Below, piece after piece: positions 14,390 through 29,359 of a DNA stretch of 38,801 nucleotides. Position 1 is the stretch's first letter; each line of letters opens with the position of its first letter. The stretch comes from Betaproteobacteria bacterium (GTDB lineage Bacteria; Pseudomonadota; Gammaproteobacteria; Burkholderiales; SG8-41): NCBI GenBank assembly GCA_025363435.1, contig JANYDY010000081.1, forward strand, positions 1 to 38,801, in the 5' to 3' direction. The notes under the pieces were generated by a model. The model made no database searches. It had not been told where the DNA came from and saw nothing but the letters and a program-made list of their open reading frames with translations. Both the position numbers and the translations under genes were made by a program.

Positions 14390-14476
14390 TTTATCCGGCA
14401 CAGTGACTCCGGTAAAACGGTTTCGCAATACCGGGGTATTTGACGGAGCGGTTTTTAACTTGTCCGGAGATACAGA

Positions 14477-14881: not shown

Positions 14882-14914
14882 TCGCTGTTTGCACGGAAGC
14901 CGGCGGCGCCGCGC

Positions 14915-15646
14915 TCAGGGTTTCGTCAGCGTGAGCAGAATGTCGGCGTACCAGGCGCAATTCAGGCCGAGCGCTTCGTCCACTTCGAGATCGCGCGAGT
15001 CGACATCGAGTCGTGCCGAGTGCACGCCCAGCAGGGTCCACGGCAGATCGCCATAACTTGTGTCAGGTTCGGCGATACGCATCACCACCGGCGCACCGCT
15101 GGTGCCGCGGTGCGTGCGTGCATCGGTCAGAAAATAGCCTTCACCCTTGAAGCGCAGCCCGAACGAGGAGGCAATAACGGCGTGGCGCGCCACCGGCATG
15201 TGATGCAGCGTATCGTGGAAGCCGAGCGGAAAACCCACAATCAGCAGCGATGTGCCGACTTCAATCTGCTGTTCCGGGGCATACAGGTGTTCGGGCGAGA
15301 ACGCCCGATAGACCGTCGATTCGGGCAGCTTGGCGCGTTCGAGTTCGATCACGGCGACGTCGATTGCGCCAGCGCTGTCACTGCCCTGGCGCCAGACGCT
15401 TTTGCCGTCGCGGTAAAGCGGAATCGAAAAACCGGTGGATTTTGTCAGATTGACCACGTCGAGATGCAGTTCAATTTCGATGCGGTCGGGAAAGTGCTTG
15501 CTCGGCTCATCGATCATGACGTGCCGGCTGGTGACAAAAAAAAGGCGCTCGTCGCGTTCGAAGAAAAAGCCGCTTGCATTGGTCAGCGGCCGTTTCTGCT
15601 CGAACGTCAGCACACGCGCGGTGGTGAGCAGTATCGGTTCAATCAT
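14915..15646 (-). CDS. Trypsin-like serine peptidase, cytoplasmic/unexported form
   Basis: A 243-residue serine peptidase of the trypsin-like fold. Catalytic triad candidates are all visible: His42 in FFVTSRHVMID, Asp96 in AGAIDVAVIEL, and Ser183 in RGTSGAPVV. The oxyanion-hole glycine precedes the Ser. There is no signal peptide, so it would act in the cytoplasm unless an unconventional route is used. There is no PDZ domain, unlike DegP/DegS, so it resembles the short, stand-alone trypsin-like peptidases often annotated as 'serine protease' in betaproteobacteria. Divergent from fumC, with 148 bases between starts. Substrate unknown. Confidence 0.82.
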   Translation of the reverse strand: MIEPILLTTARVLTFEQKRPLTNASGFFFERDERLFFVTSRHVMIDEPSKHFPDRIEIELHLDVVNLTKSTGFSIPLYRDGKSVWRQGSDSAGAIDVAVIELERAKLPESTVYRAFSPEHLYAPEQQIEVGTSLLIVGFPLGFHDTLHHMPVARHAVIASSFGLRFKGEGYFLTDARTHRGTSGAPVVMRIAEPDTSYGDLPWTLLGVHSARLDVDSRDLEVDEALGLNCAWYADILLTLTKP

Positions 15647-15738
15647 TTAAATATCTCATTCGACAGTATGCTTGAATATTGCCATCAACTGTAACACTGC
15701 ACGGCGGCGGCCGTGACGCTGACTGCGGTACGGCGCAT

Positions 15739-15766
15739 TTGCACTTTTGCATAAAAGAGCTACTAT
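15739..15766 (+). promoter_or_regulatory. Sigma70-type promoter for fumC
   Basis: TTGCAC (15739-15744) and TACTAT (15761-15766) with a 16-base spacer. Transcription would start near 15773, which makes the ATG at 15777 almost leaderless and supports the downstream ATG at 15795 as the fumC start. Confidence 0.5.
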
Positions 15767-15794
15767 CTTCCGTCGCATGTCGAAACGGAAAGTG

Positions 15795-17213
15795 ATGGCC
15801 AACAATAGAAATCGTATTGAACGCGACTCGATGGGCGCGATCGCGGTTGCCGCCGACCGCCTGTGGGGCGCGCAAACCGAGCGCAGTCTGCACCATTTCG
15901 ATTTTTCCGGTGAAACCATGCCGATCGAGGCGGTGCGCGCGCTGGTGCAGGTGAAGAAAGCGGCGGCGCTGTCGAATGTCAGACTGGGTGAACTGACGCG
16001 CCGCCAGGGCGCCGCCATCGTCAGGGCCGCAAACGAGGTGCTGCGCGGCGATTTCGACGATCAGTTCCCGCTGGTGGTCTGGCAGACCGGCTCGGGCACG
16101 CAAACGAACATGAATGTCAACGAAGTGCTCGCCAACCGTGCTTCCGAGATTCTCGGCGGCGGGCGCGGCGACCGGCGGCTGGTGCATCCGAACGACGACG
16201 TCAATCGCGGGCAGTCTTCCAACGATACTTTTCCCACCGCCATGCATATTGCCGCGGTCACCGTGCTCGAGCGGGAGTTGCGACCGGCATTGGCCGCATT
16301 GCGCGACGTGTTGGTGCGCAAAATGCGGAATTTCGATGACATCGTGAAAATCGGCCGCACCCATCTGCAGGACGCCACACCACTGACGCTCGGTCAGGAA
16401 TTCAGCGGTTATGTCGCCCAGCTTGACCACGGGCTGGCGCACCTCGACGCGGCACTGCCGCATTTGCGCGAACTGGCGATCGGCGGCACTGCCGTCGGTA
16501 CCGGCCTCAATGCGCATCCGCAATTCGGCCGGCTGGTCGCGCGGGAGCTCTCGGTGTTGACGGGGCTGCAATTCGTCAGCGCGCCGAATAAATTCGAAGC
16601 GCTTGCCGCCTGCGATGCGCTGGTGAATGCCCACGGCGCGCTGAAGACGCTTGCCGCCAGCCTGATGAAAATCGCCAATGACGTGCGCTGGCTGGCGTCC
16701 GGACCGCGCAGCGGTATCGGTGAGCTGATATTGCCGGAGAACGAACCGGGCAGCTCGATCATGCCGGGCAAGGTCAATCCGACGCAATGTGAATCGCTGA
16801 CCATGGTGTGTTGCCAGGTCTTTGGCAACGATGTTGCGGTCAACATCGGCGGCGCCTCGGGAAATTTCGAACTCAATGTATTTCGCCCGCTGGTGATTCG
16901 CAATTTTCTGCATAGCGCCAACCTGCTGGCGCAGGCCTGCACCAATTTCAGGAAATATTGCGTCGCCGGCATCCGTCCGAACCGCCAGCGCATTGCGCAA
17001 CTGACGCGCGAGTCGCTGATGCTGGTGACGGCGCTGGCGCCGCATATCGGTTATGAGAAGTCTGCGCTGATTGCGAAGCAGGCGCATCTCAAAGGCACGA
17101 CGTTGAGGCAGGCCGCCGTCGAACTCGGGCATGTCACGGCAAAACAATTTGACCGCTGGGTCAGGCCCGAGCGCATGGTCGGCGCAGCGGCGCCGAAATC
17201 GAAGCGACGTTAA
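15795..17213 (+). CDS. fumC: Class II fumarate hydratase
   Basis: Fumarase C interconverts fumarate and L-malate in the citric acid cycle. It has no iron-sulfur cluster and so keeps working under oxidative stress or iron limitation. The 472-residue product carries the family signatures: [49 protein letters not shown] and the fumarase/aspartase loop [11 protein letters not shown] with the catalytic Ser near residue 320. Two upstream ATGs exist (15747, 15777), but homology begins at [12 protein letters not shown] just after the ATG used here, which has ACGGAAAG before it. The stop overlaps the stop of the convergent Nramp-like gene (TTAA at 17210-17213). Confidence 0.94.
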
Positions 17214-18490
17214 GTTCCAAAAGTCGCAAACATTGCGATGACCGCGACCGCCATCACCGCGGTCGCCAGCCAGCCGAGGAATTTCAGCCGGCGCGTGATG
17301 ACAAACTGCCCCATGATGTCCTGTCTCACCGCCATCAGCATCATTACCGCCATGATGGGCACCGCGATTACGCCGTTGATGACCGCGCTCCAGAACAGCG
17401 CCTTGATCGGATCCACCGGGCTGAAGTTGAGCGCCACGCCGAGCAGTGTGGCAACTGTGACAATGAAGTAGAACCCTTTGGCATTCGGCAGGGTGCGGCC
17501 GAGACCGATTGGCCATCTGAATGCTTCGGCAACCGCGTAGGCGGTTGAGCCTGCCAGCACCGGCACGGCGAGCAACCCTGTGCCGACGATACCGGCGGAA
17601 AAAAGCCAGAACGCAAAATCGCCGGCCAGCGGGCGCAATGCTTCGGCGGCCTGCGCCGAGGTTTGTATGTCGGTGATGCCGTGGCGGTTCAGCGTGACTG
17701 CGGCCGTCAGCATGATAAAAAACGCCACCAGGTTGGAGAAACCCATGCCGATGTAGGTATCGATCTTGATGCGCCGCAAATGCGCGCGCGCCTGTTCGGG
17801 TGCCTGTTTCAGCGGGCGTTCGCCGGGTGCTGCGCGCTGCTCCTCGACTTCCTGCGAGGCTTGCCAGAAAAACAGGTAAGGGCTGATGGTGGTGCCGAAT
17901 ACCGCGACGACAACGACAATGTAATCGGCGCGCCACGACATCGACGGCACCAGACTGTCGAACAGCACCTCGTCCCACGGCACTTGCACGGCGAAAACCG
18001 TTGCGACATAGGCAAACAGCGTCAGCGTCAGGCCCTTGAGGATGGGCGCGTAGCGCGGGAAGGGAATGGCGATCTGCAATATCAGCGACAACACGCCGAA
18101 CGCGACCGCATAAGCGTGCGCCGGCCCGCCGATCAGCAGTCTCAACGCCGCACCCATCGCACCGATGTCGGCGGCGATGTTGATGGTATTGCCGATCAGC
18201 AGCAGGCCAACGATGGCGTGCAAAAGCGCGGCGGGGTAATGCGCGCGGATATTGGCGGCGAGACCGTGCCCGGTGACACGGCCGATGCGCGCGCTGACAA
18301 TCTGTATGCCAACCATCAGCGGGAAGGTGAACAACAGCGTCCATAAGGTGCTGTAACCGAATTTCGCGCCCGCCTGGGAGTAGGTGGCGATGCCGCTGGG
18401 ATCGTCATCGGCAGCGCCGGTAATCAGGCCCGGCCCGAGCTTTTGCCACAGCGTCGGCGCCTTTGCGGCTGCATTCCTGATTTGCTTCAT
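17210..18490 (-). CDS. Nramp-family-like divalent metal transporter
   Basis: Inner-membrane transporter of the Nramp (MntH/SLC11) fold, 426 residues, about 11 hydrophobic segments. The first-helix motif is DPSG (residues 30-33, in [14 protein letters not shown]), where classical Nramp has DPGN. In the sixth helix the usual MPHN is ISPY plus L (residues 202-206, in [11 protein letters not shown]), so the soft methionine ligand is replaced by Ser and the following His/Asn by Tyr/Leu. The classical Mn/Fe selectivity is thus not secure; related proteins lacking this Met transport Mg/Mn. The hydrophilic loop [16 protein letters not shown] is long. Start: ATG at 18490 (MKQIRN), with GGAAG upstream; a longer frame starts at 18535. 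Convergent with fumC. Confidence 0.88.
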
Positions 18491-18605
18491 TGGGCGGCTT
18501 CCAGCGCAGGCCCGGGCAGCAGAGCTTCGGGGCACTGGTAGTTTGACACGCGCGCGGTTGCAGGGCGACCCCGCCGTCCGTGCCGCGGTGTCACATCAGG
18601 CAGAA

Positions 18606-18640
18606 ACGGCGGCCGGGCAGGGATGCTGCCCGGTCGCCGT
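18606..18640. repeat. Long imperfect inverted repeat (hairpin) beside BON gene
   Basis: ACGGCG-G-CCGGGCAG / CTGCCCGG-T-CGCCGT forms about 15 pairs including one G-T, with a 5-base loop GGATG. There is no T tract, so it is not a standard terminator. It lies 53 bases beyond the stop of the downstream BON gene on minus. Confidence 0.6.
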
Positions 18641-18692
18641 CGTGTTGCCTGCCGCCGGGGTATTGCGGCGGCGCTGCGTTTTGCCGCTGCGT

Positions 18693-19019
18693 TTACTGTG
18701 CGGCGATTTTGATATCGTTCTGTACCGAGACCACGCCTTCGGTTGCGCGTGCAATTGCACCGGCTTTGTCGATTTCCGCCTGCGTCTTGGCGGTGCCGCT
18801 CAACACGACCATGCCCTTGTTATCCGTATCGACCGAGATCTTTACGGCGCTGACCAATTTCTCTTCAGCCAGCTTGGTTTTGATTTTGGTGGTGATGACG
18901 GAGTCTTTGACAAAGACCTTTGGTGAAGAGCGATCCTTGTCGCCGTCGGCCGCATGGACGGCGACAGGCAGCAGAAACGCGCCCAGCAGGAAACAGGTTG
19001 CTGCAAATCTGGTTTTCAT
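18693..19019 (-). CDS. Single-BON-domain periplasmic protein (OsmY-like)
   Basis: A 108-residue exported protein with a clear signal peptide (MKTRFAATCFLLGAFLLPVAVHAA) and one BON domain: SVITTKIKTKLAEEKLVSAVKISVDTDNKG, MVVLSGTAKTQAEIDKAGAIAR, EGVVSVQNDIKI. BON domains bind phospholipid and stabilise the envelope; OsmY/DolP are the known examples. The ribosome binding site AAAGG precedes the start at 19019. A second, larger BON lipoprotein gene lies just upstream on the same strand. Confidence 0.88.
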   Translation of the reverse strand: MKTRFAATCFLLGAFLLPVAVHAADGDKDRSSPKVFVKDSVITTKIKTKLAEEKLVSAVKISVDTDNKGMVVLSGTAKTQAEIDKAGAIARATEGVVSVQNDIKIAAQ

Positions 19020-19174
19020 GGTCTACCTTTCGAGTTTGAATATTGAAACGGTTTATAAGTGCGGCGATCTTCATCGCCACGCCAGAGTCATGCTAGCGAT
19101 CGCGATGTTCGGGGTCTGTTCGCCGCCGCACACAGAACGAACGGGCTGCCGAAGGCGCGTGACAGAAGAGCGCT

Positions 19175-19744
19175 CTACTTCTTGATGCCCAGTTCGCTGA
19201 CCACGCTGCGCGCGCCTTCGACGGCGCGGGCGAGGTCCACGGCACGGTCGATCTGTATCTGATTGTTGACGAAACCGCTGAGCTGAACTACGCCTTTGCG
19301 CGTCACTACCGAAATGTCCGCGCTGTTGACCGTCGGGTCGGAGATAAACACGGCTTTTACCCTGGCGGTAACAATACTGTCATCGACCGTATTGCCGACG
19401 CTGACCTTGTCGGCCCTGATGGTGATGCCGTTCTCCACGCCTTTGACGCCCTGCACGGCGCGCGCGACGGCGATTGCACTTTCGGCTCGCGCCTGACTGT
19501 CGACAAACCCGCTCAACAGCGCGACACCCTTGCGCGTTTCGACCTTGATTTCGATGGCCGCCCTGGTGTCGTTGCCGTCGAGCAGCGCGGATTTCACTTT
19601 TGCCGTCAACACCGTGTCGTCGATCTCGGTGCCCACCGTGGTCTTTGGCGGCGCATTGGAATCGGGGGAAACCGGTTTTTGCCGGTCGCAGGCGGTCAAC
19701 GCAATGGTGGCGCCGAGAAGCAGTGAAATAATCCTGATATTCAT
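19175..19744 (-). CDS. Two-BON-domain lipoprotein
   Basis: A 189-residue lipoprotein, lipobox LTAC (Cys near residue 19 of MNIRIISLLLGATIALTAC), followed by a Pro/Ser linker and two BON domains: DTVLTAKVKSALLDGNDTRA...GVALLSGFVDSQARAESAI and DSIVTARVKAVFISDPTVNS...GVVQLSGFVNNQIQIDRAV. This tandem-BON lipoprotein layout is that of DolP/YraP, an outer-membrane lipoprotein that maintains envelope integrity. The start used (19744) has AGGAG about 8 bases upstream; the frame is open further upstream but codes for a non-signal stretch. Confidence 0.88.
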   Translation of the reverse strand: MNIRIISLLLGATIALTACDRQKPVSPDSNAPPKTTVGTEIDDTVLTAKVKSALLDGNDTRAAIEIKVETRKGVALLSGFVDSQARAESAIAVARAVQGVKGVENGITIRADKVSVGNTVDDSIVTARVKAVFISDPTVNSADISVVTRKGVVQLSGFVNNQIQIDRAVDLARAVEGARSVVSELGIKK

Positions 19745-19811
19745 ATTTGCCACTCCTGTGTGTCGAACACCGTGTTGCCGCCGGCACGGCGATAGCCGCA
19801 CCGGCCTTTTG

Positions 19812-20030
19812 TCATGAATTGCGGGTGATGTCTTTTTGTCGCGCCTGCCAGTCGGCAAGCTGTTTTTCGGCAACGTCTTTCGAGACGCCGTAGGCTTCCT
19901 GGATCTTCCCGGTCAGTTGCTCGCGTTTGCCCGCGATCACGTCGAGCTGGTCGTCGGTGAGCTTGCCCCACTGCTGTTTAACGTTGCCTTTGAATTGTTT
20001 CCAGTTGCCTTCAATACGATCCCAGTTCAT
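19812..20030 (-). CDS. CsbD-family stress protein
   Basis: A 72-residue hydrophilic helical protein of the CsbD family (general stress protein, induced by sigma-B in Bacillus; YjbJ in E. coli). The family opening MNWDRIEGNWKQFKGNVK and WGKLTDDQLDVIAGKREQL match closely. Two ATGs lie in the sequence GGAGATGCAAATG; GGAG abuts the first, so the second (20030, MNWDRI) with six bases spacing is the better start. Function unknown, likely stress protection. Confidence 0.9.
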   Translation of the reverse strand: MNWDRIEGNWKQFKGNVKQQWGKLTDDQLDVIAGKREQLTGKIQEAYGVSKDVAEKQLADWQARQKDITRNS

Positions 20031-20201
20031 TTGCATCTCCTTGGATTACTTGATGGCCGGAGCCGGTTCGGGGATGAAGCCGGGTGCCATCAGTGTCTGT
20101 ATTGTGTCGCCGCCGCATTCGCTTATCTGTGCGCTGGCGCGCATAAAAAACGGCTTCCCGGCGCAGGTGCAACAATGCGCGGACGCGCAACGTCTGAATA
20201 T

Positions 20202-21428
20202 TTAGAACAGACGTCCGAACAGCCGCGCCGTAAATTCCTTCAGCCGCAGCAGTAACGAGCGGCGCTGCCACTGCGCCGGCTCGATCGCCTTTGATGCCTC
20301 GATGTCCTTGCTGAAAGCGAGCTGCATTTTCCGGCCGAATTCCCGTCCCAGAACAATTGCATTGATTTCGTCGTTATCGATAGCGCTGCGCCAGTCGAGA
20401 TTGCTTGAACCAAGACACGACCAGACGCCGTCGATGACGGCGGTTTTTACATGCAGCACGGCGCTTTGTCTTTCGTATATTTTTACGCCGCCGTTGAGGA
20501 GTTTCGAGTAATGCGAGCGCCCGGCATAAAAAGCCACGTCCGAATCGGAATGACTCGGCAGCACCAGCCGCACGTCGACGCCGCGCGTGGCGGCATCGAG
20601 TAGCGCTTTGATCAACTGCGGATCGGGCACGAAGTAGGCGTTGGTAATGTAGACCTGCTTTTCCGCATTGGTGATCGCGGAGATCAGAGTCAGATAGATC
20701 AGGCTGAACGGATCATCCGGCGTGCTGCCGATGGCGCGGACCACTTCCCGGCCCTGCGGCGAGATCGCCGGGAAGTGATTTTTTGCCGCCGCTGCTTTGC
20801 CGTTTTCCCCGCGCTGTTTGTCCCAGGTTTGCAAAAACAGTTTCTGCAATTCGGCTACTGCCGGGCCGTCGACCTGAATGTCGGTGTCGCGCCAGCCACT
20901 GGTGAGATCAACCTGTTCCTTGCCGATGCCGACCGATGACCCGCTGGAATAGACGTTGCTGATATTGATACCGCCCATGAATGCCGTGCGCCCGTCCACT
21001 ACCAGCAGCTTGCGGTGATCGCGATGGTTGGGCGCCCACGCCTTTTTCGCGGCGAGCGGGTTGACCGGGTTGAATTCGAGCACGTTGACGCCGGCCTGTC
21101 TCAACCGATCAAAGAAGGTTTTCGGCGTTGCCACGCTGCCGAAGCTGTCATAAATCAGATTGACCTGGACGCCCTGCAATTGCTTCTCGATCAGCAGATC
21201 CATGAACTGCCTGCCCAGTTCATCGTCGTCGATGATGTAGGACTCGACATTGATGTGATCTTTCGCCTGACCGATGGCGGCGAACATTGCCTTGTCAGTG
21301 GCCGGGCCGTCCTGCAGCAGGGTGACTTTGTTGCCGACGGTGAGGGGCGTTCCCGTGATCTCCTGCTCGAGCGTAATCTGCCGGTCCAGAATGTCGAGGT
21401 CGCCCGCTGTACGCTTGAGTTCCGCCAT
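20202..21428 (-). CDS. Phospholipase D/cardiolipin synthase-like protein with interrupted lipoprotein signal
   Basis: From the ATG at 21428, 408 residues with two HKD motifs: HRKLLVVD (in NHRDHRKLLVVDGRTAFMGG) and HVKTAVID (in LHVKTAVIDGVWSCLGSSN). These are the catalytic pair of cardiolipin synthase/phospholipase D enzymes, which join phosphatidylglycerol molecules or hydrolyse phosphodiesters. Codon reading upstream shows the frame continues into ...GCASLPDTQFLSERYKTQAARFES, whose AAGC looks like a lipobox, but a TGA stop lies at 21555-21557 in the signal (frame reads VLTRLFKVAVAAC-stop-LAFAAGC). The apparent original lipoprotein start would be a GTG at 21596. As sequenced, only an unexported protein would be made from the internal ATG, so the gene is either disrupted or the base is a sequencing error. 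See findings. Confidence 0.75.
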   Translation of the reverse strand: MAELKRTAGDLDILDRQITLEQEITGTPLTVGNKVTLLQDGPATDKAMFAAIGQAKDHINVESYIIDDDELGRQFMDLLIEKQLQGVQVNLIYDSFGSVATPKTFFDRLRQAGVNVLEFNPVNPLAAKKAWAPNHRDHRKLLVVDGRTAFMGGINISNVYSSGSSVGIGKEQVDLTSGWRDTDIQVDGPAVAELQKLFLQTWDKQRGENGKAAAAKNHFPAISPQGREVVRAIGSTPDDPFSLIYLTLISAITNAEKQVYITNAYFVPDPQLIKALLDAATRGVDVRLVLPSHSDSDVAFYAGRSHYSKLLNGGVKIYERQSAVLHVKTAVIDGVWSCLGSSNLDWRSAIDNDEINAIVLGREFGRKMQLAFSKDIEASKAIEPAQWQRRSLLLRLKEFTARLFGRLF

Positions 21429-21696
21429 TACGGCGGCGTTCTGTTTTTTCGACAGCGGCCCGCGCGCGCTTTCGAAACGCGCCGCCTGTGTTTTATAGCG
21501 CTCGCTCAGGAATTGCGTATCCGGCAGCGATGCGCAACCTGCGGCGAACGCGAGTCAACAGGCCGCCACGGCGACTTTAAAGAGGCGGGTTAGCACAGAC
21601 GTTCGCCCGGTGGCAAGGACCCGTGATCCAGTTTCTTTGTAGGGTCCATGACGTTTTCGGGAAAAGTCTGGCGCCACAAGCCGGCGCCAAACCGGT

Positions 21697-21900
21697 TTAC
21701 AGAATCTGCGAGCGGTTGCTGCTGCGCGGGCCGAGGAAGTACCACAGGATCAGGCCCAGCAGCGGCAGCAGCGCCACGGCGAGAATCCAGATCAGTTTCT
21801 TCTCGTTGGAAACGGAACTTTGAAAAATATTGATGATTGCCCAGATATCGCCGGTGAGTATTAGCAGGCCGAGCAGACTGTTGTATCCCATGGTCATCAT
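21697..21900 (-). CDS. PLDc_N-domain small membrane protein
   Basis: A 67-residue protein with two predicted membrane helices (residues 5-25 and 36-55) and the phospholipase-D-nuclease N-terminal signature: NEKKLIWILAVALLPLLGLILWYFLGPR. In cardiolipin synthases this segment is fused at the N-terminus of the PLD catalytic domains. Here it is a separate small gene upstream, on the same strand, of the catalytic PLD-like gene. GGAG lies 6 bases before the first ATG (21900). Confidence 0.85.
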   Translation of the reverse strand: MMTMGYNSLLGLLILTGDIWAIINIFQSSVSNEKKLIWILAVALLPLLGLILWYFLGPRSSNRSQIL

Positions 21901-21949
21901 GTTGAGCTCCTTTGGTTTTGAGGGTTGATCTGTGTGCTAAGCAGCCGTT

Positions 21950-22183
21950 CTATTTGCGCCTGTCGCCGAAAACCAGCAGCAGGCCGCCGATCGCGATCGC
22001 GATCGCGATCGCGCCGACGCCCGCCCATACCGGAATGTTGACCGTCTCCTTGTCCTTGACCGACATTTCAATCGGGCCGATCTTCACATCGTGGGTTTCC
22101 TTCGTATAAGTGAAGCTGCCGTAGGCGAGGCCGAGAGCGCCGGCGATGATCAATGCAATTGCCAATCCTTTGACTGCATTCAT
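21950..22183 (-). CDS. Small two-helix membrane protein
   Basis: A 77-residue protein with membrane helices at about residues 5-25 and 50-70, separated by a charged, periplasm- or cytosol-facing loop (YTKETHDVKIGPIEMSVKDKETVNIP). I do not assign a named family with confidence. It recurs next to CsbD/BON-type genes, so a stress-related role is plausible but inferred. The second helix is encoded by a CGATCG hexamer repeat. GGAG sits 5 bases before its ATG. Confidence 0.7.
   Translation of the reverse strand: MNAVKGLAIALIIAGALGLAYGSFTYTKETHDVKIGPIEMSVKDKETVNIPVWAGVGAIAIAIAIGGLLLVFGDRRK
21988..22013. repeat. CGATCG hexanucleotide repeat inside a membrane-helix codon run
   Basis: Four complete CGATCG units plus two bases, which encode repeating Ala-Ile in the second helix of the small membrane protein. 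Being a multiple of three, unit gain or loss changes helix length but not frame. Confidence 0.85.
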
Positions 22184-22335
22184 GATGGCTCCTTCTTAAG
22201 GTGGTCTAAAACGCCGGGGTCCGGGAAGCCGGCAACCGGTGGTGAATGTCCGTGTCATTTATAGCGCGGGTGGCGGTGCGCGGTCTGTGCGACAACCCAC
22301 ACGGTATTCAGGTGGTGTCATGCCGGATCGCAGAA

Positions 22336-23007
22336 TCATCCGGTCGTCGCCGGCGCCTGCACGTCTTCTTCCCAGGTTTTTCCAGCGCTGCGGCCGGATA
22401 GATCGAAGCGGCGCGCCGCTTCTTTCCAGTTTGCGACCGCCCACCAGCCTTGCAGATACCCGGGCCGCCGGTTCTCATGCCTGAGATAGTAGGCATGTTC
22501 CCAGACGTCGTTGAGCAGAAGCGGGTAATCGCCATGCATGCAGGGATTGTCATGGCCGGCAGTCGTGCAGATCGTCAATTTGCCGCCGTCTTTTCGCGTG
22601 CGCGCCAGCCACACCCAGCCGGAGCCGAAAACCTTTGCGCCTGCGGTCTCGAATTCTGTTTTGAATTTGTCGAAACCGCCGAAATCGTGCTTGATCGCAG
22701 CGCCCAGCAAACCGCCGGGCGCACCGCCACCGTCGGGCGACATCGCATTCCAGAACAGGCTGTGGTTCAAGTGCCCGCCTGCATTGTTGTGCACGGCGCT
22801 GCGCAGCGCCTCGGGGATTTTGTCGGGATTACGCAGTAACCAGACCGCGGAGCGGTTTTGCAACCCGGGCAGTTTTTCCAGCGCCGCATTCAGACTGGTT
22901 ACGTAGGCTTTGTGATGCATATCGTGATGCAGCGTCATGGTGCGCGCGTCCACGTGCGGCTCCAGCGCTGCGTATCCATAGGGCAGGGGCGGCAGTTCGT
23001 GTTTCAT
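22336..23007 (-). CDS. sodA: Fe/Mn superoxide dismutase
   Basis: Superoxide dismutase of the Fe/Mn family (superoxide to O2 plus H2O2), 223 residues, cytoplasmic, no signal peptide. Metal ligands by motif: His27 (TLHHDMHHKAYV), His82 (HLNHSLFW), Asp167 and His171 (DVWEHAYYLRH, the family signature). GGH at 77-79 before the second ligand is Mn-type. At the position that carries the key Gln in Mn-SOD (in stanQDnP) there is His152 (TTAGHDNP), a pattern known from metal-flexible (cambialistic) and mycobacterial SODs. Metal specificity is therefore open; the symbol sodA is a best guess. AGGAG precedes the start. Confidence 0.92.
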   Translation of the reverse strand: MKHELPPLPYGYAALEPHVDARTMTLHHDMHHKAYVTSLNAALEKLPGLQNRSAVWLLRNPDKIPEALRSAVHNNAGGHLNHSLFWNAMSPDGGGAPGGLLGAAIKHDFGGFDKFKTEFETAGAKVFGSGWVWLARTRKDGGKLTICTTAGHDNPCMHGDYPLLLNDVWEHAYYLRHENRRPGYLQGWWAVANWKEAARRFDLSGRSAGKTWEEDVQAPATTG

Positions 23008-23052
23008 GGCAGGGTCTCCTGAAATGGCAAATGAAATCGCCGGGCGCTTGCT

Positions 23053-23202
23053 TTATACGGGAGGGCGCCCGCTGATGACGCGCAACAACACTGCGATGAT
23101 GGCAATGACCAGCAGAATGTGGATCAGACCACCCATGGTGTAGGCAGTGACCAGTCCCAACAGCCATAAAATGATGAGGACGACGGCAATCGTATAGAGC
23201 AT
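23053..23202 (-). CDS. lmo0937-family small membrane protein
   Basis: A 49-residue membrane peptide with two hydrophobic helices separated by a TMGG turn: MLYTIAVVLIILWLLGLVT, then GGLIHILLVIAIIAVLLRVI, ending RPPV. It is a close match to the lmo0937/YqaE-neighbour peptide family found among stress genes. The ATG at 23202 has AAAGGAA upstream; the frame is open a further 15 codons but those lack the hydrophobic pattern. Function unknown. Confidence 0.85.
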   Translation of the reverse strand: MLYTIAVVLIILWLLGLVTAYTMGGLIHILLVIAIIAVLLRVISGRPPV

Positions 23203-23408
23203 GGCGGATTCCTTTCGCATGGCGCGGTCAGAAATTTGACTGCGCATCCGGTTGCCATCATGACGATGTGCGAAAGAAAACTCTGTGCGTTGGCGAACAC
23301 ACTGCGGAGATTTTTCAGCGCGTTATTGCGGGCTCGCGCCGCGCCGGAGCCGCGCTGAGCCAACGCGCTCAAAATTTGACACGGCGGCCTCCGCCTGTTT
23401 TATCGCGT

Positions 23409-23432
23409 GGCTGCATCGCCGGCGATGCAGCC
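23409..23432. repeat. 24-base perfect palindrome
   Basis: GGCTGCATCGCC joined directly to GGCGATGCAGCC, a 24-base perfect inverted repeat. It lies 14 bases beyond the stop of the Bug-receptor gene on minus. No T tract follows, so it is not a standard intrinsic terminator; it may be a protein-binding site or transcript 3' end hairpin. Confidence 0.75.
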
Positions 23433-23445
23433 GGAGCAGGTCTTG

Positions 23446-24396
23446 TTACTCGGCGGTGGCGCCGGTCGCCTTGACCACTTTGGCCCACTTGATGATTTCG
23501 TCGCGCACGATGCGGCCGAACTCGTCCGGCGTGGTGATCGCGACATCGGCCCCCATCGCGGTCAGTTTGCTCGCGACGTCGGGGTTTTTCAGCGTCGCCG
23601 CACTTTCGGCGTTTAGCTTCGCAATAATTTCCCGCGGCGTGCCGGCCGGTGCAAACACGCCGTACCACGACACCACGTTGTAACCGGGGATGCCGGACTC
23701 ATTGACGGTCGGCACATCGGGCAGTTGCGGCGCGCGTTTCATCCCGGTGACGGCGATGGCGCGCAGACGCCCGGCCTGCACGTATTGCAGCGAACCGGGA
23801 AAGCCCAGCGCCGCCAGTTGTATGTGCCCTGCGATCAGATCGGTCACCACCGGGCCGGCGCCTTTATAAGGAATGTGATTGAGTTTCACGCCGAGCAACT
23901 CCATACCGAGGTGGTTCGGCGAGCCAGTATTGGCACCGTAGTTGAGTTTGCCCGGATAGGTTTTGGCGAGCGCAATGAGTTCGCGTATCGACTTCACCGG
24001 CAGCGAAGGATGCACGGCGATGATGCTGGGAAAGGTCGCCGCCTGTATGACGGGGGCGAGGTCTTTCGCCATGTCGTACGGCAGTTTCTTGTACAAACTC
24101 ATGCCGATCGCCTGCGGGATGCCGGCACTGAGCAGCGTGTAGCCGTCGGGCGCGGCTTTCGCCACGAAGTCCGCACCGATGTGGCCGCCGCCGCCCGAGC
24201 GGTTTTCCACAACCACCGGTTTGCCCATGCTTTCGGTCAGGCCCTGGCCGATAAAACGCGCCAGCAGATCGGCGGCGCCGCCCGGTGCGAGCGGCACGAT
24301 CATGCGGATCGGTTTGTTCGGATAATCCTGTGCGGCGGCCGCCAGCGTCAATGCAGCGAATGCGCAAGCGAGGATGCAGTGCTTAACAATCGTCAT
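23446..24396 (-). CDS. Bug/TctC-family tripartite tricarboxylate transporter substrate-binding protein (catabolic cluster)
   Basis: A second periplasmic Bug receptor, 316 residues from the ATG at 24396. Signal peptide MTIVKHCILACAFAALTLAAAAQ, then [60 protein letters not shown] and VVSWYGVFAPAGTPREI, all hallmarks of the family. A GGAG lies 6 bases upstream of this ATG; the frame is open from a TTG at 24408. It lies just downstream of the LigI-like hydrolase gene on the same strand, suggesting its ligand is the substrate of that enzyme or its pathway. Confidence 0.9.
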   Translation of the reverse strand: MTIVKHCILACAFAALTLAAAAQDYPNKPIRMIVPLAPGGAADLLARFIGQGLTESMGKPVVVENRSGGGGHIGADFVAKAAPDGYTLLSAGIPQAIGMSLYKKLPYDMAKDLAPVIQAATFPSIIAVHPSLPVKSIRELIALAKTYPGKLNYGANTGSPNHLGMELLGVKLNHIPYKGAGPVVTDLIAGHIQLAALGFPGSLQYVQAGRLRAIAVTGMKRAPQLPDVPTVNESGIPGYNVVSWYGVFAPAGTPREIIAKLNAESAATLKNPDVASKLTAMGADVAITTPDEFGRIVRDEIIKWAKVVKATGATAE

Positions 24397-24446
24397 TCGG
24401 TGCTCCAATTCTGCTGATGTTGGCGGCGCGAGCGGTGCGCGCCGGG

Positions 24447-25358
24447 TTAATTGAAATCGTAGAGCGTGCGTGGATTGTCGAGCAGTATTTTCTTTTGCTG
24501 CGCAGGGTCATCGGTCCACAGCGTCATGATGTCGAGCAGATCGCCGTCGTTGGGCATCACGAAGTTCGCCGGCATATGGCCCGGTACCGCGGGATGCGGC
24601 CAGTCGCTGCCCCACACCACGCGGTCGGGCGCGACTGCAATCATTGCGCGTGCGAACGGCGTCACATCGTTATATGGATAGGGCAGTTCAGACAGGCGGT
24701 ACGGTGCCGACAGCTTGGCCCAGAAACGTTGTTCACGCATCAGCGCCAGGAGTGCGGCGAAACCCGGATGATCGACGCCGGCTGCGGCCGGCACATGACC
24801 CATATGATCGAATACCACGTCAACGCCGAGTTTGCGCAGGCGCGGTGCGATTTCTTCGAGATTGCGCGCGTCAGCATGCAGTTGTATATGCCATTTGAAC
24901 GACTTGATGCGCGCGGCAATCGCTTCGAGGTCGTCGAGCATGAGGCCGCTTTTCGCAAACAGATTGACCCGCACGCCGCGAAAGCCGGCGTCGTGCAGAC
25001 GCTGTAGTTCGCTCTCGGCGACGGTGGTCTCCACGACTGCAACGCCGCGCCAGCGGCCTTGCATTTCCAGCAGCGTATCGAGTTGGCGTTCGTTGTCCAT
25101 GCCGTACACGCTGGGCGTCACCAGCACGGCGCGTTCTATGCCCAGCGTTTTGAGCAGTTGGCGGTATTGATCGACCGTCACATCAGGAGGCGTGAACAGA
25201 CGTTTGGGCGAAAACGGATAACGCGCCAGCGGCCCGAATATATGCGCGTGACAATCGATTGCGCCGGGCGGCGCTTTGAGTTCGGGTTGGCGCGGTCGCG
25301 TATCGGGACCATCGCATATGGGAATACCGTCGGCGTCGCACTTCGTTGATTCGGTCAT
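24447..25358 (-). CDS. Amidohydrolase-fold lactonase (PDC hydrolase/LigI-like)
   Basis: A 303-residue TIM-barrel hydrolase of the amidohydrolase superfamily, COG3618-like. It has DCHAHIFGP (D35-H37-H39) and FDHMGH, with the essential Asp252 in VVWGSDWPHP. In this subfamily are 2-pyrone-4,6-dicarboxylate lactonase (LigI, gallate and protocatechuate 4,5-cleavage) and galactaro-lactone hydrolases. FGPLARYPFSPKRLFTPPD matches LigI's opening. The precise substrate is not determined by sequence. The gene is divergent from the RraA-type aldolase (143 bases between starts) and precedes a Bug receptor, so a carboxylated lactone is the likely substrate. Confidence 0.87.
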   Translation of the reverse strand: MTESTKCDADGIPICDGPDTRPRQPELKAPPGAIDCHAHIFGPLARYPFSPKRLFTPPDVTVDQYRQLLKTLGIERAVLVTPSVYGMDNERQLDTLLEMQGRWRGVAVVETTVAESELQRLHDAGFRGVRVNLFAKSGLMLDDLEAIAARIKSFKWHIQLHADARNLEEIAPRLRKLGVDVVFDHMGHVPAAAGVDHPGFAALLALMREQRFWAKLSAPYRLSELPYPYNDVTPFARAMIAVAPDRVVWGSDWPHPAVPGHMPANFVMPNDGDLLDIMTLWTDDPAQQKKILLDNPRTLYDFN

Positions 25359-25457
25359 TTCGGGATCTGTGCCGGAAAAATGCTTGAAAGAAAATTTGAT
25401 GGCTGCATTAATATCCTATCATGGACACGCCGGTGCCGGACGTTACACAATGTCCGT

Positions 25458-25475
25458 AATGCAGTGCCTTGCATT
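25458..25475. promoter_or_regulatory. Operator-like dyad in the divergent promoter region
   Basis: AATGCA-gtgcct-TGCATT, a perfect 6-bp inverted repeat with a 6-base spacer, lies 27 bases before the RraA-type start. It is in the 143-base region from which both arms of the cluster are transcribed, so it is a candidate binding site for a dimeric regulator. No regulator gene is next to the cluster. Confidence 0.4.
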
Positions 25476-25501
25476 TCTGAAAAATAAAAAACGGGGAACA
25501 C

Positions 25502-26251
25502 ATGAGCACAAAGCGGCTTACCGGCAAGATTGCCACCGGGCGCATATTGATGATGGACATTCCGCGTCCGCCGCGTTCGATCATCGATGATTTTCTCAAA
25601 CTGACGGATCTCGCCGGCACGGTGTCCGATGCGATGGACGAACTGGGCATTGCCGGAGCAATACCTGCCGCGGTGTTGAACCCGATGCTGCCCGGGGCGC
25701 GCATGGTTGGCCCTGCGCTGACCGTGCGTAATATCATGCAGACGACGCCGCCAACGCTGGGCGCGATGGAGCGCAAATCAAAACAGGCTGATCTCGAAGC
25801 GCACAATCTGGCCGAACCCGGCGATGTAGTGGTGATTGAAGGTGTTGCGGCGTACTCCAGTCTCGGCGGTAATTCCTGCGCGCTCGGGCATCGCCAGGGC
25901 GAGGCCGGCGCCATTGTAGATGGCGGCACACGCGATGTAGCGACCGCGCGGCGCCTGGGTTATCCGGTATGGGCGCGTGGCGTCAGTCTCATCACCGGCA
26001 AATGGCGTCTTGAAACCGTCGCCATCAATGGCCCGGTGCAAATCGCCGGCGTGCCGGTATTTCCGGGCGACCTCATCGTCGCTGACGACAACGGGGTGTG
26101 CATCGTACCGCGCGAACGCATCACCGAAGTGTTGCAACGCGCGCGTGCGCTGTCGCAGGCGGAGGATGTGCGCAATACCGACGTTGCCGCCGGACTCAGC
26201 ATCGTCGAAGTTGCCAACAAACCGTATTTTCAGAAAATCGGCAAAGCATAA
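25502..26251 (+). CDS. RraA-family protein, likely HMG/CHA-type aldolase
   Basis: A 249-residue RraA-fold protein. This family includes 4-hydroxy-4-methyl-2-oxoglutarate (HMG)/4-carboxy-4-hydroxy-2-oxoadipate (CHA) aldolase, which releases pyruvate plus oxaloacetate or another oxoacid, and the RNase E inhibitor RraA. The aldolase active-site motif GGTRD (residues 141-145, R144-D145) is intact, as is AMDELGIAGAIP and DNGVCIVPRERITEVL near the end. It starts with an extension of ~30 residues compared with short RraA. GGGGAA lies before the ATG. The next gene, leuC-like, follows 14 bases after the stop. The context strongly favours a catabolic aldolase over RNase regulation. Confidence 0.85.
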   Translation: MSTKRLTGKIATGRILMMDIPRPPRSIIDDFLKLTDLAGTVSDAMDELGIAGAIPAAVLNPMLPGARMVGPALTVRNIMQTTPPTLGAMERKSKQADLEAHNLAEPGDVVVIEGVAAYSSLGGNSCALGHRQGEAGAIVDGGTRDVATARRLGYPVWARGVSLITGKWRLETVAINGPVQIAGVPVFPGDLIVADDNGVCIVPRERITEVLQRARALSQAEDVRNTDVAAGLSIVEVANKPYFQKIGKA

Positions 26252-26265
26252 GTCAGGAGCGCAGC

Positions 26266-27672
26266 ATGGTTGCAGCAACAATGTTCGACAAGGTTTGGAA
26301 CCGGCATGTGATTGCCGAAGAGGAAGGCGAAGTCCTGATGTATGTGGACCGCGCGTATTTTCACGAAGGCTCGTCGCACGCCTTTACGCAGATGGACAAG
26401 CGCAATCTCAAAGTCGCGCGACCGCAGCAGGTCTTCGGCTTTACCGATCACTATGTGCCGACGGCGAGCCGCGCCGGCGGCATCGCAGGCATCGCCGTGC
26501 CTGAAATCCGCAATATGGTGATCAATCTGCATGCCAATGCGGATAAGTACGGTTTCCAGTTGTTCGGCTTCGATGATCCGCGCCAGGGCATATTGCATAT
26601 CGTGCCGCCCGAGCAGGGGATTACCCAGCCCGGCATGCTGATTTGCGGCGCCGATTCGCACACGTCCACGCACGGCGCTTTCGGCTCGATTGCCTTCGGC
26701 ATCGGCGCATCGGAAATGATGCATGTGATGACCACGCAGCGCATCTGGCAGCGCAAGCCGCGCACCATGCGTATACGTGTCGACGGAAAACTTGGTTTCG
26801 GCGTGGCGGCCAAGGACGTCATCATTGCCATCATTGCGAAAATCAGTTCGCAGGGTGGCGCCGGCCATGTGCTTGAATACTCCGGTTCTGTTTTCAAGAA
26901 CATGACCATGGAACAGCGCATGACGGTGTGCAATATGTCGATTGAAGGCGGCGCACGCGCCGGTCTGATCGCACCCGACGAAACAACCTTCGCTTATATG
27001 CAGGGCCGCCCGTGGGCGCCGCAGGGCAAAGCATGGGATGACGCCGTCGCATTTTGGAAAACGCTGCCGAGCGACGAAGGCGCAACGTTTGATTGCGAAG
27101 TCACACTCGACGGCGCGGGCATCACGCCGATGGTGACCTGGGGCACCAATCCCGAGCACGCGCTGCCGGTTACCGGCACGGTGCCCGACCCGCGCAGCGC
27201 CGGCGATGACGATAAGCGTATCGAGTTCGAAACCGCACTCGAATACATGGGGCTGAAAGCCGGCATGCCGCTGTCGGACATCGCGGTGGACCGTGTATTC
27301 ATCGGTTCATGCACCAACAGCCGGATCGAAGACATACGCGCTGCTGCAGAGGTTGCAAAGCTCGGCAAAGCGCGCGTGCCGGCGTGGGTGGTGCCGGGTT
27401 CACAGACCATCAAGCTTGCGGCAGAAAAAGAAGGCCTCGACAAAATTCTGCTGGCGGCAGGCTTCGAATGGCGCGAGCCCGGCTGTTCGCTGTGCACGGC
27501 GCTCAATGGCGATCAGTTGAAACCGGGCGAGCGCTGCGCTTCAACCTCCAACCGTAACTTTCGCGGTCGCCAGGGCACCGGCGGGCGCACGCATCTGGTG
27601 AGCCCGGCAATGGCTGCCGCCGCCGCCATCAACGGACACATCGTCGACGTGCGTGAAATGCTGAGGAAATAA
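26266..27672 (+). CDS. LeuC-type dehydratase large subunit in a catabolic context
   Basis: Aconitase-superfamily large subunit, 468 residues, homologous to isopropylmalate isomerase LeuC. The [4Fe-4S] ligands are in place: C349 (FIGSCTNSR), C407 and C410 (CSLC). SNRNFRGRQGTGGRTHLVSP is highly LeuC-like. However the usual MDHNVST is TDHYVPT (residues 60-66), and the family's CLAMNNDRL is CTALNGDQL. These changes, a partner leuD, and the lack of leuA/leuB nearby suggest a non-leucine substrate. GGAG lies 6 bases before the ATG. The frame is open to 26098, but only within the upstream gene. The leuD-like gene starts 2 bases after its stop. Confidence 0.88.
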   Translation: MVAATMFDKVWNRHVIAEEEGEVLMYVDRAYFHEGSSHAFTQMDKRNLKVARPQQVFGFTDHYVPTASRAGGIAGIAVPEIRNMVINLHANADKYGFQLFGFDDPRQGILHIVPPEQGITQPGMLICGADSHTSTHGAFGSIAFGIGASEMMHVMTTQRIWQRKPRTMRIRVDGKLGFGVAAKDVIIAIIAKISSQGGAGHVLEYSGSVFKNMTMEQRMTVCNMSIEGGARAGLIAPDETTFAYMQGRPWAPQGKAWDDAVAFWKTLPSDEGATFDCEVTLDGAGITPMVTWGTNPEHALPVTGTVPDPRSAGDDDKRIEFETALEYMGLKAGMPLSDIAVDRVFIGSCTNSRIEDIRAAAEVAKLGKARVPAWVVPGSQTIKLAAEKEGLDKILLAAGFEWREPGCSLCTALNGDQLKPGERCASTSNRNFRGRQGTGGRTHLVSPAMAAAAAINGHIVDVREMLRK

Positions 27673-27674
27673 AC

Positions 27675-28301
27675 ATGGAAGCTTTTACCAAACTTAAAGG
27701 TATCGCGGTACCGATCGACGAACCCAATGTCGACACCAACCAGATCTGCCCGACGCGTTTCAACAAAGTGCCGCGCGGCCCGGCCTATGCCAAAGTGCTG
27801 TTCCACGACCGCCGTTTCAATCTCGACGGCACGGAGAAAGAGCACATTTTCAACATCGAACCGTTCAAGCGCGCGCGTATCGTCGTTGCTGACCGCAACT
27901 GGGGCTGCGGTTCGTCGCGTGAGAGCGCGGTGTATGCGCTATACGAGTTCGGCATTCGCTGCGTGATCGCTTCGAGCTTCGGCGACATTCATGCCAACAA
28001 CTGTACGAAAAACGGCGTGCTCGCGCTGGTGCTGCCGGAAGCCGACGTGATTGCCTTGCGCAAACAGCTGCACGAGAAGCCGGGGGCGGAACTCGACATT
28101 GATCTGGCGGCGCAAACCGTGATCGATGCGAGCGGACGCAAATATACGTTCGACATCCCGCCGGCGCGCAAGAAGTGCCTGCTCGAAGGTCTCGACGACA
28201 TCGCCCGCACCGAAGTCTACGAAGCGCAGACCGCGGCTTTCGAGGCGGCGTACCGGGCGGAGCGTCCCTGGCTCTATCAAGCGAACGCCGCGCAGAACTG
28301 A
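27675..28301 (+). CDS. LeuD-type dehydratase small subunit in a catabolic context
   Basis: Aconitase-superfamily small subunit (swivel domain), 208 residues, partner of the preceding large subunit. NVDTNQICPTRF and NWGCGSSRESAVYAL are the active-site loops. The usual GCGSSREHAPWAL reads GCGSSRESAVYAL, and the substrate-recognition region CPTRFNKVPRGPAYAKVL differs from leucine-pathway LeuD (IPKQFLQ...). SSFGDIHANNCTKNGVLAL replaces the usual DIFYGNSFNNQLLPV. These changes support a substrate other than isopropylmalate. A GAGGAAA ribosome binding site overlaps the end of the preceding gene. An intrinsic terminator 50 bases downstream ends the operon. Confidence 0.87.
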   Translation: MEAFTKLKGIAVPIDEPNVDTNQICPTRFNKVPRGPAYAKVLFHDRRFNLDGTEKEHIFNIEPFKRARIVVADRNWGCGSSRESAVYALYEFGIRCVIASSFGDIHANNCTKNGVLALVLPEADVIALRKQLHEKPGAELDIDLAAQTVIDASGRKYTFDIPPARKKCLLEGLDDIARTEVYEAQTAAFEAAYRAERPWLYQANAAQN

Positions 28302-28350
28302 TGCTGCGGCCGCGCCGTATCGGGGATTCCTCGAAACCGTTCCACTGAAA

Positions 28351-28373
28351 GCCCGCGCAAGCGGGCTTTTTTT
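28351..28373 (+). terminator. Intrinsic terminator after the RraA-LeuCD operon
   Basis: GCCCGC / GCGGGC stem with a GCAA tetraloop and a seven-T tail, ending the plus-strand operon. Confidence 0.88.
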
Positions 28374-28445
28374 GCCATTGCCGCGCCGGCGGAAAATTAC
28401 AAAATTGTAATTTTCCGGCAACTTATCTGGCGGGCTTGGGCAGCA

Positions 28446-29243
28446 ATGATGTCAGCTGTCCCGTTTGTTATTGAAAACAAAAATATGACGTACACGATGC
28501 ACGTTCAAGGAGAGGACGGCGCCGCGAGGCAGTTCGTACACCGCGACATCATTCCCGCCAAAATCGCCGAAGACAAAGCCTACGCCGATCTGCTGACGAA
28601 GATCGGCGCCTATACGATGACCATCCAGAGCGGTGCCGGCGCCACCTACAATCTGTTCAAGTCCGTCAAATACATCGTGCAAAACAGGATACGGGGCGAC
28701 ATCGTCGAGTGCGGCGTCTGGCGCGGCGGCTCGATGATGCTGATGGCGTACGCACTGCAGTATTTCAACGACCGTACGCGGTCGCTCTATCTTTACGATA
28801 CCTATAACGGGATGACGGAGCCCGACGAAATCGATATCGATTACGAAGGGCGGAATCTGCGCGCCATCTGGCAGGGGGCGCACCAGGCGGGCGCAAAAAT
28901 GGGTTACGGCGGCAGCGTCGATAGTGTGCGGGGAAATTTGCGCAGCACCGGTTATCCGCCGCAACGCATGAATTTTATCGAGGGCGATGTGCTGGAAACA
29001 ATACCCGCAACGCTGCCGGAAAAAATATCGCTGTTACGACTGGACACCGATTTCTACAAATCCACGCTGCACGAACTGACCCATCTCTATCCGCGCGTGG
29101 TCTCCGGTGGCGTCATCTATATCGATGATTACGGCTGGTGCAAGGGCGCGCGCCAGGCCACCGATGAATATTTTTCCGCGATCGATTTTCAGCCGTTTCT
29201 GGCGCGCATCGACGAGACGGTCAGAATTATCATCAAGCCCTGA
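28446..29243 (+). CDS. TylF/MycF-type O-methyltransferase
   Basis: A 265-residue SAM-dependent, Mg-using methyltransferase of the TylF/MycF (macrocin-O-methyltransferase) family: GDIVECGVWRGGSM (SAM site), LYDTYNGMTEPDE, LLRLDTDFYKST (metal-binding Asp pair) and GGVIYIDDYGWCKGARQA. Members methylate sugars on antibiotics or polysaccharides. There is no sugar-biosynthesis gene next to it, so the acceptor is unknown. Start options: ATG at 28446, 28449 or 28485; none has a clear ribosome binding site. It is single, flanked by a terminator and tRNA-Val. Confidence 0.85.
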   Translation: MMSAVPFVIENKNMTYTMHVQGEDGAARQFVHRDIIPAKIAEDKAYADLLTKIGAYTMTIQSGAGATYNLFKSVKYIVQNRIRGDIVECGVWRGGSMMLMAYALQYFNDRTRSLYLYDTYNGMTEPDEIDIDYEGRNLRAIWQGAHQAGAKMGYGGSVDSVRGNLRSTGYPPQRMNFIEGDVLETIPATLPEKISLLRLDTDFYKSTLHELTHLYPRVVSGGVIYIDDYGWCKGARQATDEYFSAIDFQPFLARIDETVRIIIKP

Positions 29244-29284
29244 GCGTGCGCCTGGGTGTATCGGGGTTGGCGTCTGCCGGTATG

Positions 29285-29359
29285 TGGTGGGCGGTACTGG
29301 GATCGAACCAGTGACTTCCACCGTGTGAAGGTGGCACTCTACCGCTGAGTTAACCGCCC
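29285..29359 (-). tRNA. tRNA-Val (CAC anticodon)
   Basis: On minus, GGGCGGT at the 5' end pairs with ACCGCCC at the 3' end; a D arm (ACTCAGCGGTAGAGT), anticodon stem-loop CCACC-TTCACAC-GGTGG and T arm CTGGTTCGATCCCAG are present. The 7-base loop gives anticodon CAC (Val, codon GTG). CCA is encoded (29285-29287). The 75 bases fold fully. Confidence 0.95.

Follow-up and report, generated by a model that had tools for sequence, protein, structure and literature searches.

A LeuCD-like pair of a distinct clade beside lactonase and RraA-family genes in a variable region of a betaproteobacterial genome

What does a pair of genes resembling leuC and leuD do next to genes for a lactonase, an RraA-family lyase and a Bug-type receptor? 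The question is raised by a 38,801-nucleotide stretch of a Betaproteobacteria bacterium of the order Burkholderiales (contig JANYDY010000081.1 of assembly GCA_025363435.1, positions 1 to 38,801; hereafter the window), in which a divergent cluster of five genes occupies positions 23446-28301. Judged from sequence, leucine synthesis is very probably not the task of the LeuCD pair, and the existence of a misnamed LeuCD clade is the robust new point of this analysis. For the cluster as a whole we tentatively propose a laterally assembled catabolic unit for a carboxylated lactone or a polycarboxylic acid, a statement to which we give slightly less than even weight. The features of the cluster are as follows.

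23446-24408, minus strand: Bug/TctC-type periplasmic receptor, 320 residues from a TTG start or 316 residues from an ATG at 24396 (PF03401, 236.6 bits)
24447-25358, minus strand: amidohydrolase-2 protein, lactonase resembling LigI and sulfomuconolactone hydrolase, 303 residues (PF04909)
25359-25501, no strand: divergent intergenic region, presumed control region, 143 bases by coordinates
25502-26251, plus strand: RraA-family lyase of the G-X20-R-D subgroup, 249 residues (PF03737)
26266-27672, plus strand: LeuC-like large subunit of the aconitase superfamily, non-leucine clade, 468 residues (PF00330, 520 bits)
27675-28301, plus strand: LeuD-like small subunit with the altered loop NVDTNQICPTRFNKVPRGP and an intact GSSRE, 208 residues (PF00694)
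28347-28373, plus strand: hairpin resembling an intrinsic terminator, 3' of the LeuD gene, with a 10-bp stem and a 7-T tail

Each of the five genes is an open frame from start to stop codon, and the Pfam families TctC, Amidohydro_2, RraA-like, Aconitase and Aconitase_C were all matched well over their cut-offs. The genes thus stand as the initial annotation had named them and on the strands it had given.

The LeuCD pair and leucine synthesis

The NCBIfam models accept both subunits: LeuC scores 649 bits with TIGR00170 (cut-off 560) and LeuD 163 bits with TIGR00171 (cut-off 116), and standard annotation would therefore name the pair leucine genes. With the 3-isopropylmalate dehydratase LeuCD (TIGR00170/TIGR00171; NF009116/PRK12466) the window pair shares, besides the cut-offs passed, the fold family, the subunit split, the cluster cysteines and GSSRE. 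Cys349, Cys407 and Cys410 of LeuC stand in cluster-ligand contexts, and GSSRE is found at LeuD residue 79; we take these cysteines to be the cluster ligands and GSSRE to be the small-subunit motif of the aconitase superfamily. The pair differs from 3-isopropylmalate dehydratase in its separate clade, in its catabolic and transport neighbours and in residing in a genome with another leuCD set.

This other set lies on contig C107 of the same genome and consists of leuC, a leuD whose loop is canonical, and an Iso_dh gene standing in the place of leuB. Together with the distinct clade and altered loop of the window pair, it makes it very probable that this pair is not the enzyme of leucine synthesis; the initial annotation had likewise placed the pair outside that pathway, and the C107 set bears this out. 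Elsewhere the genome has additional LeuC-like genes, one apparently split across contigs C99 and C105, as well as seven Iso_dh genes and three hits to the LigB domain. Several other large subunits of the aconitase superfamily (about 420 residues) occur near Bug receptors in this genome (L012, L013, L014 and L015).

Of the 68 LeuC rows placed in a tree, 53 form a clade that has 100/100 support, includes the window protein and excludes the canonical rows. The clade was found in three families of this bacterial order. Its LeuD proteins carry the loop NxDTNQ[L/I]CPTRFNK in all 37 compared; in the shared motif NxDTNQ[L/I]CPTRFNKVPRGP two positions are kept in 36 of the 37, whereas the five canonical proteins have NVDTDAIIPKQFLKS. 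The stretch TNQ[L/I]CPTRFNKV of the clade thereby faces TDAIIPKQFLKS in canonical LeuD. Seventeen LeuD positions consistently separate the 37 clade sequences from the five canonical ones, nine of them at residues 22-35, and a test for the leucine-type loop failed, with 37/37 clade and 5/5 canonical sequences differing at residues 22, 23, 25, 27, 28, 30 and 35. Presumably this loop is the one that governs the substrate preference of isopropylmalate isomerase. For that enzyme, PMC7308503 describes a five-residue substrate recognition region that lies within a flexible small-subunit loop and sets the preference.

The sister of the window LeuC in the tree is L190 of G321, a genome of another genus (100/99), on a long branch that was flagged as unsure. 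The contig of L190 (G321 C13) has 44.7% G+C and methyltransferase-, thioesterase- and short-chain dehydrogenase/reductase-type neighbour genes, and may not belong to its bin.

A Pfam scan of 20 window proteins showed no leucine-type neighbour genes and no leuA-, leuB- or dioxygenase-type protein, in agreement with the absence of leuA, leuB and a ring-cleavage dioxygenase that had been noted for this locus. A catabolic, non-leucine reading of the cluster is highly probable. The clade is thus a coherent protein group that database models name LeuC and LeuD and that very probably does not make leucine, and its loop signature eases the flagging of such proteins. A bolder claim is that the TNQ[L/I]CPTRFNKVPRGP clade has a new aconitase-superfamily activity, that of a [4Fe-4S] hydratase or isomerase of tricarboxylate-type intermediates, and supplies here a third solution to the hydration step, unrelated to LigJ and GalB, between a LigI-type lactonase and an RraA-family lyase; this appears unlikely. 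Should the arrangement in the window form a single route, an iron-sulfur hydro-lyase would replace the LigJ/GalB step.

Lactonase, receptor and RraA-family lyase

The lactonase shares 101 of 273 aligned residues (37%) with LigI (4d8l) and scores 242.6 bits with the model of 4-sulfomuconolactone hydrolase (NF042924), whose cut-off is 500. It belongs with both to the amidohydrolase-2 family and keeps LigI residues H31, H33, S77, R124, H180, R217 and D248, among which we take the three histidines, the aspartate and the two arginines to be catalytic. It differs from them in its identity of 37% to LigI, in about half of the required score (243 against 500 bits) and at three LigI positions, Y49, R130 and Y156, which are F55, K136 and H161 in the window protein. 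We take these three to be carboxylate contacts, and because they are changed, 2-pyrone-4,6-dicarboxylate (PDC) itself is not assured as the predicted substrate.

The LigI likeness claimed in the initial annotation holds, by the identity to 4d8l and by relatives of 47-48% on the two Roseomonas plasmids viewed (L253 and L254). There the lactonase gene stands with two Bug receptors, a class III dioxygenase and a true 4-carboxy-4-hydroxy-2-oxoadipate (CHA) aldolase, which reaches 311.6 bits with the LigK model, passes both cut-offs and keeps E-X20-R-D. These protocatechuate 4,5-cleavage/gallate-type clusters thus have a LigI-like lactonase, an RraA-family protein and Bug receptors in common with the window, and differ from it in the true CHA aldolase and the ring-cleavage dioxygenase; no LeuC or LeuD hit was obtained in the stretches fetched. 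The three LigB-domain hits of the window's genome sit on contigs other than that of the cluster. In the same-genus genome G331, an 82% orthologue of the Bug receptor again stands next to this lactonase and this RraA gene.

The assignment of the RraA-family protein to the CHA aldolases of the LigK type, also part of the initial annotation, failed by score and by motif. The protein is the genome's only TIGR02798 hit and misses the LigK cut-offs widely (TIGR02798, 82.1 vs 304.5 bits; NF006731, 84.2 vs 179). We take D/E-X20-R-D to be the motif of 4-hydroxy-4-methyl-2-oxoglutarate (HMG)/CHA aldolases such as LigK, the D being seen in the 3noj alignment. The window protein has G123, R144 and D145 and hence lacks the first acid, similar to 33 of the 34 family rows (itself included) that read G-X20-R-D; the remaining row, L117, has D. 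From an AlphaFold model computed with a 27-row alignment (mean predicted local distance difference test score 93.5), the nearest solved folds are 3k4i and the HMG/CHA aldolase 3noj (template modelling score 0.75). The protein accordingly shares with LigK/GalC-type aldolases (3noj; TIGR02798) the RraA-like fold and the R and D of the R-D pair, and differs in G for D/E, in an identity of 27% in the structural match and in scores far under the family cut-offs. With both score and motif acid failing, the protocatechuate-4,5/gallate reading is weakened to one option among several.

A putative second motif of RraA-like aldolases is G-X20-R-D-X2-E/D; the window protein has its G, R and D, but T148 where E/D is expected. 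PMC5065237 mentions one of two motifs for RraA-like aldolases, and the second was not found in print in our literature search. The RraA family also comprises FlDet, which is described in PMC8563752 as a keto-deoxy-glucarate dehydratase/decarboxylase partnered by a semialdehyde dehydrogenase. Since such an activity is reported, an aldolase would not be the sole choice for the window protein. FlDet resembles it in the family and in the aldehyde dehydrogenase genes near many orthologues of the window RraA, and differs in that the window cluster showed no aldehyde dehydrogenase.

Neighbourhoods of the two halves in other genomes

Within the window, 14 bases separate the RraA gene from the LeuC gene, which is preceded by AGGAG, and 2 bases separate LeuC from LeuD; the RraA and LeuCD genes have operon-like spacing. 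Co-occurrence was sought among the matches listed from 300 genomes of the order (20 neighbourhoods per gene), in 74 genomes of the family and in a collection of genome contigs. All four gene types together were found nowhere outside the window in these sets. The conserved co-occurrence that the initial annotation had offered as a check on its pathway is therefore not borne out: LeuC was present in 0/20 loci with RraA orthologues and RraA in 0/30 loci of the LeuCD clade. Instead, comparison shows that two separately conserved modules are joined here, namely lactonase, Bug and RraA on the one hand and LeuCD, often with TctA, a dehydrogenase of the isocitrate/isopropylmalate type (IsoDH) and Bug, on the other.

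The 20 genome-contig loci with RraA orthologues (75-85% identity) include three that are cut short: L245 breaks off within RraA, L246 immediately behind it and L239 some 1.3 kb past it; a 21st, L249, a weak match of 31%, was left out. The lactonase with an adjacent Bug gene occurs in 6/20, and an aldehyde dehydrogenase gene in 16/20, mostly just downstream and together with TauD-type genes. The RraA orthologues of L172, L173 and L229-L248 mostly stand in a conserved cluster with TauD-type dioxygenase genes and an SSADH-like aldehyde dehydrogenase. Two metagenome records that carry this cluster (L231 and L242) are labelled Bordetella parapertussis and look like mislabelled uncultured betaproteobacteria.

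Across 34 gene-called RraA-family loci, the window included, lactonase-family genes were present in 8 and Bug genes in 24, and LeuC solely in the window and in L117. The latter was rejected as a recurrence: its LeuC lies outside the clade, its RraA is a 31% match with the D motif, and the two genes are about 3.3 kb apart on opposite strands. A supposed RraA-LeuC join in G302 was rejected as well, as the RraA there meets the contig end with unlike sequence and the LeuC has ApbA upstream. More distant RraA relatives include one of 47% about 20 bases from an AcnA-type aconitase gene (L058) and others of 46-48% near sulfatase genes (L054-L057 and L059), the one in L055 being choline-sulfatase-like, below the cut-off. 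A search of named plasmids gave no near relatives of RraA, LeuD or the lactonase, with the best places all below 60%.

For the LeuCD clade, tallies cover 30 of 31 fetched loci chosen from the listed places; the AT-richer L190 gave no gene calls and was read separately. The gene caller was trained on Bug, LeuC and similar hits. Single-linkage clustering was used to group the genes, so that a name like TauD or Bug holds at family level only, and TctB was labelled from size and place only. Within five genes of the clade LeuCD, Bug was counted in 26 loci, TctA in 14, IsoDH in 12, ApbA in 12, lactonase-family genes in 5 (35-40% identical to that of the window) and muconate-cycloisomerase-family genes in 5. 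The combination of LeuCD with a lactonase-family gene thus recurs among the clade loci; in L191 a single strand carries Bug, then a gene of the lactonase family, LeuC and LeuD, with 16 bases before LeuC. Two tandem LeuC-like genes before one LeuD were seen in L101, L102, L103 and L105, and their identities to the window LeuC are about 63-65% and 72-73%.

The window's own genome carries, on contig C85, a module of TctA, IsoDH and an FAH hydrolase with a convergent Bug gene and no LeuCD. Its Bug and FAH flanks are intact and lie 25-32 bases apart in alignments. At that spot the same-genus genomes G339, G342 and G343 have 2.1-2.2 kb with LeuCD, between neighbours that are mostly 82-97% identical. 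Near the module are an HMGL protein closest to isopropylmalate/homocitrate synthases (below cut-offs), an acetolactate-synthase-like enzyme and pyruvate dehydrogenase subunits. This LeuABCD-like module (L205, C85:1-16000), from which exactly LeuCD is missing, also has a GlcD-like gene. In all five other same-genus genomes with a clade LeuC, the gene is in the C85-type setting, beside FAH in L188, L189, L193 and L194 and one gene off in L184. The window LeuC is only 67-71% identical to these copies, so it is not simply a moved C85 copy; together with the tree, this identity rules out such a move.

A joint route and its rivals

The genome (2.97 Mb in 118 contigs, 91.7% complete) has the cluster at a site that is variable by synteny, with the break at the 3' end of a tRNA gene:

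11861-29284, no strand: variable region holding the cluster, 17.4 kb, with flanks colinear in G339 and G342 and an unlike middle
29285-29359, minus strand: tRNA-Val(CAC), predicted by ARAGORN, whose 3' end bounds the variable region on the right

On the left (positions 15-11860) and on the right (the genes beyond 29285) the window is colinear with the same-genus genomes G339 and G342, and same-genus synteny resumes at 29283-29285 in four genomes. The middle DNA measures 17.4 kb in the window and about 32 kb and 14 kb in G339 and G342, where no window genes were found at more than 40% identity in the middle, bar one match of 42% and Bug cross-matches. A 28-base repeat of this tRNA end occurs in G342. 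In the loci compared (L258-L265) the variable region lies between an acyl-CoA dehydrogenase gene and tRNA-Val, and the two same-genus genomes traced across it carry other cargo there. That one genome combines a module without LeuCD and, in a variable region linked to a tRNA gene, a more distant LeuCD makes a concrete case of recombined pathway modules. The cluster is a new combination of known enzyme families, made of two conserved modules in a variable region.

The pathway that we propose is plausible. The Bug receptor, by its family, would capture the acid, and a permease would act in trans because the three TctA genes of the genome are on other contigs. The LigI-like amidohydrolase would open a carboxylated lactone, as its family and retained catalytic residues suggest. 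LeuCD, a predicted [4Fe-4S] hydro-lyase of the non-leucine clade with a changed substrate loop, may hydrate or isomerise the resulting unsaturated or tertiary hydroxy acid, and the RraA-family lyase might split or decarboxylate the product to central metabolites. The two halves are, by comparison, separately conserved modules joined in the variable region beside tRNA-Val. A catabolic role on carboxylates fits the gene contexts seen. On whether LeuCD acts in the same pathway as the lactonase and RraA we are nearly evenly divided, leaning to the doubtful side. The literature search found no paper that connects LeuCD-type enzymes with a LigI or RraA pathway.

Several observations weigh against a joint route. 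The usual partners of the clade are IsoDH and TctA, not lyases, and as the genome has such a module without LeuCD, the window pair could serve the C85 module. The joined RraA-LeuCD arrangement was seen in this one contig only, so the argument for functional coupling comes down to spacing. The RraA protein lacks the aldolase motif acid. Among the 74 family genomes (own genome counted, at the cut-offs set), 20 have an RraA orthologue, 6 the lactonase and 46 a clade LeuC; by hand count, the clade LeuC is present in 17/20 genomes with an RraA orthologue and in 29/54 without. Within genus g2, the main source, the figures are 15/17 vs 3/4, and kinship may therefore explain the excess. The same-genus G331 (88% complete), the closest relative with the triad, has it at 79-85% identity and shows no clade LeuC at E 1e-195. 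As to lateral assembly, the window has no exact second copy (at least 12 bases) of the tRNA end, and no integrase was found among the 20 proteins scanned.

Among the rivals, the window LeuCD may replace in trans the pair missing from the C85 module, its place beside RraA being a by-product of the assembly of the variable region and its substrate a 2-/3-hydroxy acid pair of a LeuABCD-like module. The intact C85 flanks, the 2.1-2.2 kb with LeuCD at that spot in the three relatives, the nearness of LeuCD to FAH in all five other same-genus genomes and the HMGL protein speak for this explanation. The identity of 67-71%, when C85 neighbours mostly show 82-97%, and the pairing with another genus in the tree speak against it; the tight spacing behind RraA is also left unexplained, and we hold it to be somewhat unlikely. 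A sugar-diacid route, in which the lactonase opens an aldarolactone-like compound, RraA acts as an FlDet-like keto-deoxy-hexarate dehydratase/decarboxylase giving alpha-ketoglutaric semialdehyde, and LeuCD works on a side product or elsewhere, is quite unlikely. FlDet of the RraA family (PMC8563752) does perform this reaction with a semialdehyde dehydrogenase, and aldehyde dehydrogenase genes accompany most RraA orthologues; but the likeness to FlDet is one of family, the lactonase is nearest to LigI and sulfomuconolactone hydrolase in the libraries searched, and the scan of 20 window proteins turned up no aldehyde dehydrogenase.

The route originally suggested for this locus has the lactonase opening PDC, LeuCD hydrating 4-oxalomesaconate and RraA acting as the CHA aldolase. 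The LigI likeness with its kept catalytic set and the Roseomonas clusters, which pair a 47-48% lactonase with a CHA aldolase and a class III dioxygenase, point to it, yet RraA reaches 82 bits against the LigK cut-off of 304.5, when the Roseomonas aldolase has 311.6 and keeps E-X20-R-D, this RraA is the only TIGR02798 hit of the genome, and the three presumed LigI contacts differ, which makes the literal route very unlikely. That the RraA-LeuC junction is a chimeric assembly join is highly improbable: the junction is known from one contig only, but the AGGAG and the 14-base spacing before LeuC, an even G+C on both sides (0.605 and 0.601), the hairpin in place and the colinearity of both outer flanks with relatives argue against it. 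Least credible of all is ordinary leucine biosynthesis with LeuCD as a second isopropylmalate isomerase, for which the passed LeuC and LeuD models speak and against which stand the C107 set, the loop and tree of the clade and the lack of leucine-type neighbours among the window proteins scanned.

The borders of the cluster genes add minor detail. The divergent gap is exactly 143 bases by coordinates, as the initial annotation had stated for its shared control region, and contains an imperfect inverted repeat (25453-25480) and a single promoter-like site (25422-25451) that is not above chance for the region. A terminator after the cluster had also been claimed, and a terminator-like hairpin does stand at 28347-28373, just beyond the end of the cluster (z -1.87, with 7/200 shuffles folding equally well). 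A simple terminator scan did not list this hairpin; counts from simple scans were near chance, with 7 terminators vs 6.1 and 3 promoters vs 2.1. On the other side of the cluster, two perfect 24-base palindromes (21988-22011 and 23409-23432) flank a gene that by eye resembles superoxide dismutase, the second beginning 13 bases past the end of the Bug gene.

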